The position numbers and the translations under genes are program-made. From NCBI GenBank assembly GCA_002699085.1, contig PAAR01000031.1, positions 1 to 42,750 on the forward strand: a stretch of 42,750 bases of DNA, given 5' to 3'. Positions 890-13,665 of the stretch are shown here, piece by piece. Position 1 is the first letter of the stretch. The number at the start of each line of letters is the position of its first letter. Under the pieces are notes generated by a model. That model searched no databases, had not been told where the DNA came from, and saw only the letters and a list, made by a program, of their open reading frames with translations. This stretch comes from Micavibrio sp. Lineage in GTDB: Bacteria; Pseudomonadota; Alphaproteobacteria; Micavibrionales; UBA9664.

Positions 890-1483
890 ATGTCTATACC
901 GCTCATAAAGTTACATTTTGTTCGCCATATACGCGTTGAGGATAATGGTGTTGTGTACGGCCCGACGGTTGATTTCCAGCAGACAAATTTATGTGAATTA
1001 ATGCCATGCGCAGATAAGTTGCCTTCGCCTGATAGGTCGTTATGGTTTTCCTCTGATTACGCCCGTGCTATGCATACAGCGTTGTCACTGCTCTCTCTTA
1101 AGAAAGCAGTGCAACGGCCAAAAATTAGGCAGATGATATCCATGCGTGAACACTGCCTTAAACCTTTTGAAGGATATCGTTGGGATGATCTATGGACAGA
1201 TGAAGAGCTGCAGCCATGGTTTAAAGATCCGTGGACGGTTCAGCCATCTTATAAAGGTATCGAAGGTGGAGAAACTTTAGAGGCTTTCCAGCAACGTGTA
1301 TCTGAGGGTATTAACAAAGTCATAGACGTGTTGGCGGTTAATCCAGACGGCAAAAACGAAGCAGTGATTATCTGTCATGGCGGTGTCTTGCAGATGGCAC
1401 GTTATTTAGCAGGGCGTACGACTCGTCAAACTTATTTAGAGCCTTATCCAAATAACCTTGAAATCTTGACGCTTGAGATATAG
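890..1483 (+). CDS. Histidine phosphatase superfamily protein (phosphoglycerate mutase/CobC-like)
   Basis: The 197-aa product has the branch-1 histidine phosphatase layout. The N-terminal motif LHFVRHIRVEDNGVVYG carries the phospho-accepting histidine, and a C-terminal AVIICHGGVLQMARYLAG carries the second histidine. YKGIEGGETLEAFQQRV in the middle corresponds to the GES/E region that supplies the acid. The usual RHG triplet reads RHI here, resembling the RHAPV variant of CobC-like proteins. It lies between ctaD and ctaB, 12 nt upstream of ctaB, so the two are probably co-transcribed. The substrate cannot be inferred. No strong Shine-Dalgarno is visible; the start was chosen because the catalytic motif begins at residue 8. 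Confidence 0.8.
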   Translation: MSIPLIKLHFVRHIRVEDNGVVYGPTVDFQQTNLCELMPCADKLPSPDRSLWFSSDYARAMHTALSLLSLKKAVQRPKIRQMISMREHCLKPFEGYRWDDLWTDEELQPWFKDPWTVQPSYKGIEGGETLEAFQQRVSEGINKVIDVLAVNPDGKNEAVIICHGGVLQMARYLAGRTTRQTYLEPYPNNLEILTLEI

Positions 1484-2851: not shown

Positions 2852-3187
2852 ATGAATAACAATATTAAAACGATCGCTCATTGTGGCGTGGGGTTTGGCG
2901 GTCATTTAGCAATGTGCTTTACGGCTGCTGCGGCGACACCGTTTGTGGCGGCTGCCGTAGGTTTAGCGATTACACCAGTGGCTGGTATGGCGGTTGGCTT
3001 AGGTCTAGCAACAACCATCTTTGTAGCTTGTGGGGGCTATAAAAAACCTGCAGCCTCAGCAGGCTTTGTGGCACTCGGTTTGGCGGCCTTTGTGACACAT
3101 TGCATGTTTTTTATGGGGAACGATATGAGTGACATGTCTTTATTTGAGGCGATCGCTAATGCTAGTCGTTGTTTTACGCCACAATAA
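2852..3187 (+). CDS. Unrecognised small hydrophobic membrane protein with His/Cys motifs
   Basis: The 111-aa product is preceded by AGAAGGAT, a plausible Shine-Dalgarno. It has three hydrophobic segments (about 18-38, 42-60 and 68-92). Cysteine and histidine residues are paired near the membrane edges: HCGVGFGGH at 10-18, an MC in the first helix, and HCMFF after the third. I do not recognise a family. The paired residues could bind metal, which would fit the DUF2946-like and oxidase neighbours, but this is inference. It is the first of four consecutive unrecognised genes in the same direction. Confidence 0.6.
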   Translation: MNNNIKTIAHCGVGFGGHLAMCFTAAAATPFVAAAVGLAITPVAGMAVGLGLATTIFVACGGYKKPAASAGFVALGLAAFVTHCMFFMGNDMSDMSLFEAIANASRCFTPQ

Positions 3188-3224
3188 AATTGCAAAAACC
3201 ATAAAAACTCTTTAAGGAAAAGAT

Positions 3225-3572
3225 ATGTCTGTAAATATTTTAGAAAGACCCGTCACTGAACCAAAAGAAGCTGCAACCATCTATATATGGGACATGGAGA
3301 TGGACGCTCAAACACAGGCAGCTATTGACAAAATCCTTGATTACATTGCGCGTCATAATATATCACCAAATATTCAGGTACAGGGTAACCTTGTGACGGC
3401 TGTTTCCACGATTATTGAGCAGTTTAGTGCGCAATTACCTAGCTATATGAAGGCCGAGCAAGATATGTTTTTTAATCACATGATCCGCTGGATTGCCGAT
3501 TACGCAAAAGAGACTAATTTACGCAATTTAGATGTTACCTTTAGCTTTAAGCAACAAGGGGTGGCGTCATGA
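3225..3572 (+). CDS. Unrecognised 115-aa soluble protein
   Basis: The product starts after AAGGAAAAG, a good ribosome-binding site 37 nt beyond the preceding gene. It looks largely helical, with no membrane segment, and contains WDMEMDAQTQAAIDKILDYI and a second amphipathic helix around HMIRWIADYAKE. Its stop codon overlaps the start of the 673-aa gene as ATGA, indicating translational coupling. No family was recognised. Genes this tightly coupled often encode interacting proteins, so it may partner the downstream large protein; that is inferred from arrangement only. Confidence 0.6.
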   Translation: MSVNILERPVTEPKEAATIYIWDMEMDAQTQAAIDKILDYIARHNISPNIQVQGNLVTAVSTIIEQFSAQLPSYMKAEQDMFFNHMIRWIADYAKETNLRNLDVTFSFKQQGVAS

Positions 3573-5590
3573 GTTTACCCGCAGTTCTTTATAAAGATCG
3601 CTTAGAAATTGGCTTTACCCATAGTAATCAAGGCAATGGTTCAAAAGCACGCCAGCTTGTTGATCTTAATGGTTCGCACCGTGCTAGCCAATATACAATG
3701 GGCGGCACGGTTAATTCTAAGGTCAATGATGCAGGGCTTATGGCCTTAATTGGCAATGTCAAAACATTGGTTTTAGAAGCATCAGCGATTGAAAATGAGG
3801 CGGATATTTGGGCCAATGATAATGATGTACGCCTTGATATTCAATTATTAGAAACTTTTGGCGCGGACATCGTCAATGTTCAAGATTTTGCCCAAAGTAT
3901 CTTGGCTGCCGAGACAATTATTGAAGGGCCGTTACCTGTTGAGCAAGTAGAAACATTGTCCAAGTTGATTGTTGATATGGCCGAACTTCGCCAGATGGTT
4001 TTACATGCTGATACGCCAACATTAAAAGCCGCTATGCAAGTGCGTGCTAGCATCCTAATAGAGGAAGTGCTGGATGCTCTGGAAGTAGGCGGTGATGACC
4101 AGTCCATACAGATGAACGCTATTTTATCACCCGCTGTTATTTTGGCGACAATGCAGCTTATGACAGTTACAGCTCAGCATTTTGGCGTTGGCGCGCAGTT
4201 TAGCCAGCGCTTTGAGGCAGTTCAAAAAACGGCTGTTTTGCGTCAGTCTATAGAAGTGGCTGCGCAGCAACAACAGCAATCAATGTCTATGGTAATGGAG
4301 ACTTTGCAACAAGTGTTACAAAATCCTGAATTGGATGAGCAGAGGCGTGTCACAATTGAGTCTACTATAGAAGCGTTAATGAGTGTCCAAGAAGGCCAAA
4401 AATCTTTATCTCCCACATTATTAGAAAAAGTACAAAAATTGGTCGCCATAGAGGGTATGGCCCCTGTCATCAATACATTTATTCAAGCGACGATGACACT
4501 TAATGAGGTGAGTACGACAGCAATATCCCAAGGTGTACAAATATCGAATATCAGCCCAATTGTCTCGGCCATTGTTAAGCAAAGCGTTTCTAATGAAATC
4601 TCAGCAAGACCTATGCCTGAAGCAGTGCGTTATGCGCAAAAAGCCTCACCAATTTCAGCTGATAATGTAATCCGCTCTGCACCGATTAATTTTTCAAAAA
4701 TAGTTCCGATGACAAGCGCACCAATAAATATTTCACCTCTTGTGATGCAATTGAAAGAAGCGTTGCCAGCCCTCCCTGAGCGCCCAACGGCTAGCGATAA
4801 AGCCTTGTTTGTTTATGTAGAAAAACTGGCGCAAACACCGCCCCCATCACCAAAAGAGATCGACCAAATTATTGTTGAGATTGAAGCACGCTTGCCTGAT
4901 GATCTACCACAAGAGGAGCGAGATGCCATTACTAAGCTAGTCGAAGAAATTAAAGGGCAGCCTAATCTAGACCCTGATAAACCAGACGAACAAAAGTTAA
5001 AAGAACCTTTACCAGAAAAGCTGGATGATTTTGAAGCTGCACCAGAGCCAATAAAACCAGACTGCGGACCAATATGTAATTGTTTTCCAAAACCAAAAGC
5101 CATGAGTTCGGATCAGATTGCCGAGCTAAATGCTGCAGTTAATAAGAATAGTGATGCAAATAGAAGAACATCTTTTAACGAAGATGGCAGCGTCACAATC
5201 ACAATACGTCAAGGGGATGGTAGTGTCGTGACCCAAAGCTACACCGCAGAAGAGATAGCTAGAGACGCTGAAGCTGTTGCGACTGAGGTAAAAAATATAG
5301 AAAATAAGGGCTGGTCTAAGAAGACAACAACAGCAAAAGAGCTAGAAGATATTGTAAATCGTAGATCTTCTTATGGGCCGGGCCATGTGCATCACGCAGG
5401 TTGCGGTTGTGTACCAGACTTTTCAAAAGCAAATGGCAAAGATGGCGATGATGCGGGTTTAAAAGTAGTTGAGGCGACAATCACTGTTGCTGATCTGGGT
5501 AACGGAAAACCAAATACCGAATTAGACAATACTCTTGGCAAAAGGAAAAATGTCGATATGGCGGCCTTATTTGCACCAGCCTTGACATAA
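3569..5590 (+). CDS. Unrecognised 673-aa protein, helical N-part and Cys/His-rich C-part
   Basis: No known family was recognised. Residues 1-60 are polar. Residues 60-345 are mostly helical and alanine/glutamine/valine-rich, including a QQQQQ run near 233. Residues 395-495 are rich in proline and acidic residues. Two small Cys/His clusters follow: DCGPICNCF (C499, C503, C505) and GHVHHAGCGC (H606, H608, H609, C612, C614). Between them lies SVTITIRQGDGSVVTQSY, a short beta-like segment. There is no signal peptide or membrane helix. It is ATGA-coupled to the gene upstream. The clusters look able to bind a metal or cluster, but spacing and function are unknown. Confidence 0.65.
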   Translation: MSLPAVLYKDRLEIGFTHSNQGNGSKARQLVDLNGSHRASQYTMGGTVNSKVNDAGLMALIGNVKTLVLEASAIENEADIWANDNDVRLDIQLLETFGADIVNVQDFAQSILAAETIIEGPLPVEQVETLSKLIVDMAELRQMVLHADTPTLKAAMQVRASILIEEVLDALEVGGDDQSIQMNAILSPAVILATMQLMTVTAQHFGVGAQFSQRFEAVQKTAVLRQSIEVAAQQQQQSMSMVMETLQQVLQNPELDEQRRVTIESTIEALMSVQEGQKSLSPTLLEKVQKLVAIEGMAPVINTFIQATMTLNEVSTTAISQGVQISNISPIVSAIVKQSVSNEISARPMPEAVRYAQKASPISADNVIRSAPINFSKIVPMTSAPINISPLVMQLKEALPALPERPTASDKALFVYVEKLAQTPPPSPKEIDQIIVEIEARLPDDLPQEERDAITKLVEEIKGQPNLDPDKPDEQKLKEPLPEKLDDFEAAPEPIKPDCGPICNCFPKPKAMSSDQIAELNAAVNKNSDANRRTSFNEDGSVTITIRQGDGSVVTQSYTAEEIARDAEAVATEVKNIENKGWSKKTTTAKELEDIVNRRSSYGPGHVHHAGCGCVPDFSKANGKDGDDAGLKVVEATITVADLGNGKPNTELDNTLGKRKNVDMAALFAPALT

Positions 5591-5636
5591 TCTTGAAAAC
5601 TGTTTATTAAAATGAGTAAAATAAGGAGATATAAGA

Positions 5637-6302
5637 GTGACTGATTTAGTAATGCCCCGTATTGATGCGATTATCCCTGTTACCTCGGATGTGGCAGCCG
5701 CCGCAAAGAATATTTATACGCATCCTGCTTTACCTGCAGGTATGACAGCGCAACTTTTGCAAGTAACGAAAGATATTCATTGGCGTCGATTAGATGACCC
5801 GTCAAACCCTTTGATTAAAGAAGATTCACAAGGTCGTAAACTTATGTACATGCTATGGGGTCATCCAAATCCAGAACACACATTGGATCCTGATTTTATG
5901 GTAGCAATGATTTGCCCTTTGGTAAGAGTGAATAATGACACCAAATGGGGCTTTAAGCCTGAAACGATTATCCGTGGCAGCAAGATAGATTTTATTGCTG
6001 TTGGTGGGATGTCTTGTTGTGCAGGGTCTCTTCAATTGCATTGGTCACAAATAACTGAGCAAGGAAATGTTGATGAAGCGCGCATTCCTGTAAGCGGTTT
6101 GCCACATCCTGAAGAAGCAAATTGGTTAAAGGGTCGTGTTCGTGTTGCTACAAATGATCAAGGGCGTGCAGCGCTTCACCATTTGGCGACAGATATGCTT
6201 CATCACCGCATGCCAAATGACCAGCGTTTTGCGTATAATTGCGGCCACAAAGCAGATTACACCGCTTATGCGAATGGCCTCGGTACACCTAAATTGGGGT
6301 AA
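5637..6302 (+). CDS. Unrecognised 221-aa protein with a CC motif and many histidines
   Basis: The gene uses a GTG start at 5637, chosen because AAGGAGA lies 8 nt upstream and the next in-frame ATG has no such site. The product is soluble, with GGMSCCAGSLQLHW (about residues 122-135) and a histidine-rich stretch HHLATDMLHHRMP near residues 181-193. It also contains MLWGHPNPEHTLDPDF. I know no matching family. It follows the 673-aa gene by 46 nt in the same direction and is the last gene of this unknown cluster. The CC and His runs suggest metal binding, which is inference. Confidence 0.6.
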   Translation: MTDLVMPRIDAIIPVTSDVAAAAKNIYTHPALPAGMTAQLLQVTKDIHWRRLDDPSNPLIKEDSQGRKLMYMLWGHPNPEHTLDPDFMVAMICPLVRVNNDTKWGFKPETIIRGSKIDFIAVGGMSCCAGSLQLHWSQITEQGNVDEARIPVSGLPHPEEANWLKGRVRVATNDQGRAALHHLATDMLHHRMPNDQRFAYNCGHKADYTAYANGLGTPKLG

Positions 6303-11871: not shown

Positions 11872-13665
11872 ATGCCTGTATACCAAGCCCCCCTCAATGA
11901 TATGCGTTTTGTCTTAAAAGACGTTCTTGATGTCGAGCAATTAAGCAAATTGCCCGGTTATGAAGAAGCAGGTGTTGACCTTATTGATGCGGTTATGGAA
12001 GAGGGCGCAAAAATTTGCCAAGATGTTTTGTTCCCGCTCAATATGTCTGGCGATCAAGAAGGCTGCACGCGCCATGATGATGGCTCGGTAACCACACCTA
12101 AAGGTTTCAAAGAAGCCTATCAAACATTTATCCAAGGTGGCTGGACGGGGATTTCGGCTGATCCAGAATATGGCGGATCAGGTATGCCAGTGCTTGTGAA
12201 CACAGTTATGCAAGAAATGATCTGCTCGTCTAATATGAGTTTTGGGATGTATCCAGGGCTTTCGCAAGGTGCTTATGAGGCGATCCATCTTTACGGTACG
12301 GAAGAACAAAAAGCACTATATTTGCCGAAAATTGTATCGGGTGAATGGTCAGGCACAATGAATTTGACCGAACCACATTGTGGGACAGATTTAGGATTGA
12401 TCCGCACAAAAGCCGATGATAATAAAGACGGCTCTTATGCAATTTCAGGGTCTAAAATATATATTTCGGCAGGCGAGCACGATATGGTCGAAAATATTGT
12501 GCATCTGGTATTGGCGAGGCTGCCCGATGCACCAGAAGGCGTGAAGGGTATATCGCTTTTCGTTGTGCCGAAGTTTTTACCAAAAGAAGATGGTTCTTTA
12601 GGCGCGCGCAATAAACTTATTTGTGGTTCAATCGAGCATAAAATGGGCATTCATGCCAACTCCACCTGTGTGATGAATTTTGATGGCGCGCAAGGCTGGC
12701 TCGTAGGTGAACCGCACAAAGGTCTACGCGCAATGTTTGCGATGATGAATGCTGCACGTCTTGGTGTGGCCATGCAAGGGTTAGGTATTGCCGAAGTGGC
12801 CTATCAGAACGGTTTGGCTTATGCGAAGGATCGTTTGCAAATGCGCTCACTCGACGGCACAAAATTCCCAGATAAGCCAGCCGACCCGATTATTGTGCAC
12901 CCAGATGTGCGCCGTATGTTGCTGACCAGTAAATCAATTATTGAAGGCTGCCGTGCGTTGTCTTTTTGGACGAGTATGAATCTTGATATCTCATTAAAGA
13001 GCGAAAATGAAACTGAGAAGCAGGCTGCCGATGATCTTGTGGCCTTAATGACTCCAATTTTAAAAGCCTATCAAACAGATATGGGCTTGGAAATTGCCTC
13101 TCATGCAGTGCAAGTTCATGGCGGTGCTGGCTTTATTCAAGAATATGGTGTCGAGCAATATATGCGTGATGCGCGTATTGCGATGATCTATGAAGGCACA
13201 AACGGTATCCAAGCGCTTGATCTTGTGGGCCGTAAAATGGGTCAGCATATGGGTCGTTTGCTGCGCCGCTTCTTCCATCCAGTCAATGATTTTATTGAAG
13301 CGCATCAGGCTGATGCAGAAATGGCTGAATTTGTAATGCCACTCGCTAAAGCCTTTATGAAACTACAACAAGCCACCGCAACTGTTGCACAAAAAGGTCT
13401 CAAGAATCCTTTAGAAGCAGGTGCGGCATCTTCTGATTATCTACGGATGTTCGCACTAACGGCACTCGCTTATATGTGGGCAAGAATGGCAAAAGTGGCG
13501 CAGCAAAAATTACAATCTGGTGAAGGCGATAAAGAATTTTATGATGCTAAAATCAAAACCGCACAATTTTTTATGAGCCGTGTGCTGCCTGAGGCCGATG
13601 CACGATTTAAGATGTTAATGGCTGGTGCTGATACGATGATGGCACTCAAAGCAGAACAGTTCTAA
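11872..13665 (+). CDS. Acyl-CoA dehydrogenase with C-terminal extension (DmdC-type)
   Basis: At 597 aa this matches the long acyl-CoA dehydrogenases that carry an extra C-terminal helical domain, the group including 3-methylmercaptopropionyl-CoA dehydrogenase DmdC. It is an FAD enzyme that oxidises acyl-CoA to enoyl-CoA. Visible are the N-terminal MPVYQAPLNDMRF start typical of the group, the FAD/substrate motif MNLTEPHCGTDLGLIRTKA (about 162-180), QVHGGAGFIQEYGVEQYMRDARI, and IYEGTNGIQALDLVGRK holding the likely catalytic glutamate. The palindrome ACCATTTCATGGT lies at 11827-11839 in its leader. The SCP2 gene follows 10 nt later, pointing to fatty-acid metabolism. The exact chain length or substrate is not determinable. 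Confidence 0.92.
   Translation: MPVYQAPLNDMRFVLKDVLDVEQLSKLPGYEEAGVDLIDAVMEEGAKICQDVLFPLNMSGDQEGCTRHDDGSVTTPKGFKEAYQTFIQGGWTGISADPEYGGSGMPVLVNTVMQEMICSSNMSFGMYPGLSQGAYEAIHLYGTEEQKALYLPKIVSGEWSGTMNLTEPHCGTDLGLIRTKADDNKDGSYAISGSKIYISAGEHDMVENIVHLVLARLPDAPEGVKGISLFVVPKFLPKEDGSLGARNKLICGSIEHKMGIHANSTCVMNFDGAQGWLVGEPHKGLRAMFAMMNAARLGVAMQGLGIAEVAYQNGLAYAKDRLQMRSLDGTKFPDKPADPIIVHPDVRRMLLTSKSIIEGCRALSFWTSMNLDISLKSENETEKQAADDLVALMTPILKAYQTDMGLEIASHAVQVHGGAGFIQEYGVEQYMRDARIAMIYEGTNGIQALDLVGRKMGQHMGRLLRRFFHPVNDFIEAHQADAEMAEFVMPLAKAFMKLQQATATVAQKGLKNPLEAGAASSDYLRMFALTALAYMWARMAKVAQQKLQSGEGDKEFYDAKIKTAQFFMSRVLPEADARFKMLMAGADTMMALKAEQF

Follow-up and report, generated by a model that had tools for sequence, protein, structure and literature searches.

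The window analysed here is a stretch of 42,750 nucleotides from Micavibrio sp. (contig PAAR01000031.1). Directly downstream of ctaB and cytochrome oxidase genes it carries five consecutive genes, designated P1 to P5:

2425..2811, + strand: P1, DUF2946 protein of 128 aa (Pfam DUF2946, E = 3.6e-6)
2852..3187, + strand: P2, small membrane protein of 111 aa (ORF, with positional homologues sharing H-x(2-3)-C)
3225..3572, + strand: P3, 115 aa, putatively one half of an N-terminal head (matched by profile in 10 genomes of the order)
3569..5590, + strand: P4, 673 aa (homologues in G001, G031, G012, and other genomes)
5637..6302, + strand: P5, soluble protein of 221 aa with a GTG start (profile search within the order; alignment of 12 homologues)

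The ORFs of P2–P5 are all intact. The gaps between genes measure 35 bp (ctaB–P1), 40 bp (P1–P2), 37 bp (P2–P3), and 46 bp (P4–P5), and the frames of P3 and P4 overlap through ATGA. P1 has an N-terminal hydrophobic stretch and the motifs ICSG and SRxPP, and P2 contains H-x3-C within its first hydrophobic segment and one Cys near its C-terminus. The first-pass annotation had described P2–P5 as four genes in order on one strand, the middle two ATGA-coupled, with Cys/His motifs in their products. Coordinates, strand, and the P3/P4 overlap were confirmed, as were the H-x3-C of P2, two Cys/His clusters in P4, and a Cys-Cys pair at residues 127–128 of P5. The boundary of the set was moved upstream to take in P1, because P1 travels with P2–P5.

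No convincing family was found for P2–P5 in Pfam, NCBIfam, PHROGs, or PADLOC, matches such as those to SiaC, DEK_C, and CynR being weak or sub-threshold and judged to be due to chance. Searching the PDB with profiles of P3, the P4 head, and P5 yielded nothing credible either. A relationship of P3 to hexokinase or histones was rejected, as the PDB matches were confined to one short stretch, and so was an HPr phosphocarrier fold for the P4 N-terminus, which had no HPr match in Pfam at E ≤ 10 and none in the PDB. The initial impression that these four proteins belong to no recognised family thus held for the curated libraries and, as regards P3, the P4 head, and P5, for the PDB profile searches. 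AlphaFold, given three input sequences in each case, produced models of P5 (mean pLDDT 43) and of the N-terminal half of P4 (mean pLDDT 46) whose quality was insufficient for a fold search, the sole confident part of the latter being a helical stretch at about residues 220–320. P1 is the only one of the five proteins assigned to DUF2946 (PF11162), its score of 28.1 bits lying above the curated gathering threshold of 23.7. To our knowledge, this family has no known function. P1–P5 are a real, conserved module not described in the family libraries.

Whole-genome profile searches detected P5 in 11 and P3 in 10 of 142 genomes of the order Micavibrionales. Among 385 genomes across the class the window genome was the sole match for each of the two proteins, with none outside the order, and a search of plasmids with P5 gave no match. 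A first scan of genome contigs with P4 alone was also without a match; a second retrieved two contigs of Micavibrio MAGs (L080, L081). Seven Micavibrionales genomes, which represent three families, share the gene order, as P1-P2-P3-P4-P5 with separate P3 and P4 in the window genome, G001, and G031, and as P1-P2-[P3P4]-P5 with P3 and P4 fused in G007, G023, G093, and G139; P1 occupies the same place in all six genomes other than that of the window. In these comparisons P1 was identified through similarity to DUF2946 or, if this was weak or missing (L042, L028), through its position and motifs. P2 was identified through its position and its H-x(2-3)-C motif; the motif is indistinct in G031. A second group of P3-P4 genes, lacking P1, P2, and P5, occurs in genus g15. 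Since homologues are arranged in this order in further genomes as well, the pattern is not due to chance. A neighbourhood conserved beyond the window genome, for which the first-pass annotation had suggested a search, does exist, but P1–P5 are a set limited to the order Micavibrionales, as judged from P3 and P5 in the 142 genomes of the order and 385 of the class.

The fused proteins bear on the nature of P3. In G051 (L026) a single polypeptide is colinear with the concatenated profile of P3 and the P4 head (E = 9.9e-21). The other fused proteins gave weak single-sequence scores against this profile; in profile-profile alignments they were colinear over 185–188 columns across the gene boundary, with a probability of 92–95% and E-values of 6e-7 to 6e-8 that apply to the comparison of one pair. 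P3 and the N-terminal domain of P4 are therefore likely to form one head, which is a single polypeptide in several genomes. P4 consists of this conserved N-terminal domain (about residues 1–110), a helical or variable linker, and two C-terminal Cys/His clusters, CGPICNC at residues 499–505 and HVHHAGCGC at residues 606–614 of the window protein. Its Cys residues, exactly five, all fall within these clusters (at 499–505 and 612–614), and the same confinement is seen in G001, G007, and G139, whereas several other homologues have one to three Cys outside the clusters and some carry a third C-terminal cluster. Across homologues the first cluster is of the CxxxCxC, CxxC, CC, or CxC type, and the second is often HxCGxxCxH (HVCGPGCDH, HKCGAGCNH, HVCGAGCAH); P4 of the g15 group shows a single glycine/cysteine cluster, and one contig-truncated protein lacks clusters altogether. 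Complete members are between 550 and 2,362 aa long, a difference that lies mostly in the low-complexity or helical linker. The longest (L020, 5914-13002) has long Gln/Lys/Ala-rich repeats and, between its Cys clusters, a His-rich stretch (HVHHHHDGHNHNHGHDHGHSHG). In P5, residues P108, G114, C127, and C128 are invariant in 12 of 12 aligned homologues, H182 is near-invariant, and C202 is present in most. The P4 clusters and the conserved Cys and His residues of P5 are candidate metal ligands. No signal peptide was seen in the sequences of P4 and P5.

When upstream regions were scanned, TGTTATAnTATAACA-like palindromes were found no more than about 60 bp before the start of P3 or of fused P3-P4 at L025 (two), L027 (two), L028, L042, L043, L044, and L079/L095 (two), and also upstream of P5 at L020. 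The Zur sites GATGTTATATCATAACAAT and ATTGTTATGATATAACATC, published for Caulobacter (PMC4176598), conform to this pattern. When up to two mismatches were allowed genome-wide, all four sites in the 1.9-Mb genome of G007 lay at its two P3-P4 loci, and two (overlapping) of the three sites in G023 lay at P4. The single G093 site with at most one mismatch is located at P4, and the two exact sites in G139 are at a COG0523 gene and at P4. The corresponding chance probabilities extend from 5e-4 to about 3e-16 (the latter for G007) and are a guide only, as the 130-bp target was chosen after the sites had been seen. In sum, a Zur-like operator is present at the module in G007 (two loci), G023, G093, G139, G090, and G051, and in G012 for P5 only; the clusters in the window genome, G001, and G031 yielded none. 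The box also precedes COG0523 genes (G001, G139), zur (G015), a Zrg-type ATPase gene (G012), and a P5-like gene (G051). At L076 (3055-5144) and L077 (2648-4766), paired Zur boxes lie between the genes of two proteins, one His-rich and predicted to be exported, the other a small membrane protein that contains Cys and whose gene is followed by zur; these are likely further members of the zinc regulon. Other palindromes occur as well. Fur-box-like 7-1-7 palindromes (TGAGAATGATTCTCA; TGAGAATAAATCTCA) upstream of fused P3-P4 at L026 (about 5820-5933) and L045 (about 12442-12550) suggest iron control in some lineages, so that the metal may not always be zinc. In genus g15, GGAC...GTCC palindromes precede P3, most clearly in L024 (AGGACAAATTTCGTCCT) and less cleanly in L022, L023, and L029, and possibly represent an Rrf2/IscR-type site.

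Zur-like proteins are encoded next to the operons of L042, L043, L075, L094, and L095. Two of the FUR-family proteins adjoining clusters were compared with the PDB and matched E. coli Zur (4mtd) with E-values of 5e-26 and 2e-22, versus 1e-8 or weaker for PerR and Fur. In four genera (L042, L043, L075, L095) the P4 locus also holds, besides zur, genes for a Zrg-type ABC ATPase, an FtsX/MacB-like permease, and a DUF3299 protein. L042 carries on one strand P1, P2, a box, P4, P5, the ABC ATPase, the FtsX permease, DUF3299, and Zur, with ORFs that touch or overlap from P5 on. L095 has two boxes, P4, a further box, a shortened P5-like gene that lacks the CC, a peroxiredoxin-like gene, COG0523, ABC, FtsX, DUF3299, and Zur. 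In L043 the Zrg/Zur genes are divergent from COG0523, a small membrane gene, P1, P2, P4, and P5. L075 contains Zur, a P4 remnant, P5, ABC, FtsX, and DUF3299; here (3510-4461) the zur-like gene is immediately followed by the C-terminal remnant of P4 in an overlapping frame, which reflects a deletion or an assembly error. P3-P4 copies apart from zrg exist in L025 and L044, and DUF3299 was found in 35 of 142 genomes of the order, among them 5 of the 11 P5-bearing ones, which amounts to a loose association.

The P1–P5 locus of the window itself has no Zrg-type ABC, permease, or DUF3299 genes. A Zrg-like operon lies elsewhere, on contig C17 (L093, 5140-7947), and comprises a small DUF2946-like protein (a sub-threshold match, E = 0.024), an ABC ATPase, an FtsX permease, and DUF3299, with neither a Zur box nor an adjoining zur. 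The one FUR-family protein of the window genome has an unrelated neighbourhood and does not adjoin the cluster. A full COG0523 GTPase was not found in this genome, which gave only marginal COG0523-like matches, and a genome-wide scan for Zur boxes returned ten weak sites, none of them near P1–P5. As the completeness of the genome is 97%, zur may simply be missing from the assembly.

Our preferred explanation, held with modest confidence, is that P1–P5 probably constitute a lineage-restricted metal-limitation module of the Micavibrionales, most likely for zinc, with P4 and P5 as metal-binding partners of a Zrg-like transporter. Judged from genome sequences, a role in metal (zinc) limitation appears well supported in the relatives and, by extension from them, is probable in the window genome. 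Where promoter sites occur in the relatives, Zur would leave its operator when zinc is scarce and the module would be made. P3 and the N-terminal domain of P4 would form one head, from which a long flexible linker would extend to the two far-end Cys/His clusters, the putative zinc-binding sites; P5 may be a second, soluble metal-binding partner acting through its Cys-Cys pair and His, and the hydrophobic segments of P1 and P2 suggest envelope components. P4 and P5 might capture or hand over zinc for the Zrg-type transporter on the cytoplasmic side. This role is proposed because in L042 and L075 they stand directly before the ABC genes, in the place of ZrgA of Vibrio; we infer their cytoplasmic location from the absent signal peptides, and the direction of zinc flow is equally inferential. 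The window genome would have retained the module without a detectable Zur and with its Zrg-like operon at another locus.

Other readings have to be weighed against this one. The first-pass annotation had raised metal handling or respiratory assembly as possible functions. The metal-handling part is borne out by the Zur boxes at P3/P4 and the zur, Zrg, and COG0523 loci of the relatives, and the respiratory part is undermined by a linkage limited to one genus. That P1–P5 are assembly factors for cytochrome oxidase, heme, or copper would fit the position of ctaB and oxidase genes immediately before the set in the window. This neighbourhood is restricted, however, to the genus of the window (in G001 with two unrelated genes between ctaB and P1); no oxidase genes lie beside any other cluster found, where the neighbours are zinc genes or unrelated, and the family libraries gave no match of P2–P5 to an oxidase or heme assembly-factor domain. 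The gene context largely refutes this reading, which is very improbable. A histidine-phosphatase-like gene lies between coxA and ctaB in the window (890-1483) and has a counterpart in the corresponding position in G001.

A general transition-metal limitation module, serving zinc in some lineages and iron in others, with P4 and P5 as a cytosolic buffer or chaperone without a fixed tie to Zrg, would accommodate the Fur-like and GGAC...GTCC palindromes, the retention of the set in the window genome, where no Zur was identified, and the P3-P4 copies that are not located at zrg. Among the promoter signals, however, it is the Zur box that is statistically strong, and this alternative appears somewhat unlikely. 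MacB/FtsX permeases are a class with exporters among its members, and the long, variable low-complexity linkers of P4 are of a kind common in exposed proteins; both features would suit a P4 sent out by the neighbouring ABC transporter as an exported or surface zinc scavenger, with P5 as its chaperone. Yet P4 showed neither a signal sequence nor RTX repeats nor any other sign of secretion, and module and transporter lie at separate loci in the window genome, which makes such export quite improbable. A bolder version of the preferred zinc-limitation reading regards P3, P4, and P5 as founders of a new class of zinc-limitation proteins, in which a head-linker-metal-tip protein of up to 2,362 aa would shuttle zinc within the cell together with a Zrg/MacB-type transporter lacking an ordinary periplasmic binding protein; this we consider speculative and distinctly unlikely.

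The Micavibrionales include epibiotic predatory bacteria. For four unannotated protein families of this order, the genome evidence provides a physiological context, zinc limitation, which bears on zinc handling by FtsX/MacB-type Zrg transporters and on substitutes for ZrgA. The module reading also predicts zinc-repressed expression through a named operator.

Two known systems invite comparison. The operator sequence of the Zur regulon of Caulobacter crescentus is the same as the module box in the relatives, and two DUF2946 proteins are among the genes changed in a zur mutant of this organism (PMC4176598). These genes go down in the mutant, however, whereas those shown as derepressed encode TonB receptors and ABC-2 transporters (PMC4176598), and neither P3 nor P5 was detected in the sampled members of the class that belong to other orders. 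The zinc uptake system ZrgABCDE of Vibrio consists of ZrgD (DUF2607), ZrgA (DUF2796), the ATPase ZrgC, the permease ZrgB, and ZrgE (DUF3299), encoded in the order D, A, C, B, E (PMC9817125). Given this order, P4/P5 occupy the position of ZrgA in L042 and L075. None of P1–P5 has a Pfam DUF2796 match, however, and P2–P5 differ from the Vibrio components in lacking any family match; as P4 and P5 have no signal peptide, a direct replacement of the periplasmic ZrgA is impossible. Just as the DUF2607 protein leads the zrg genes in Vibrio, a small DUF2946-like protein leads the run in L042, and the ABC ATPase, FtsX/MacB permease, and DUF3299 protein of Vibrio Zrg recur at the P4 locus of L042, L043, L075, and L095, beside Zur boxes or zur.
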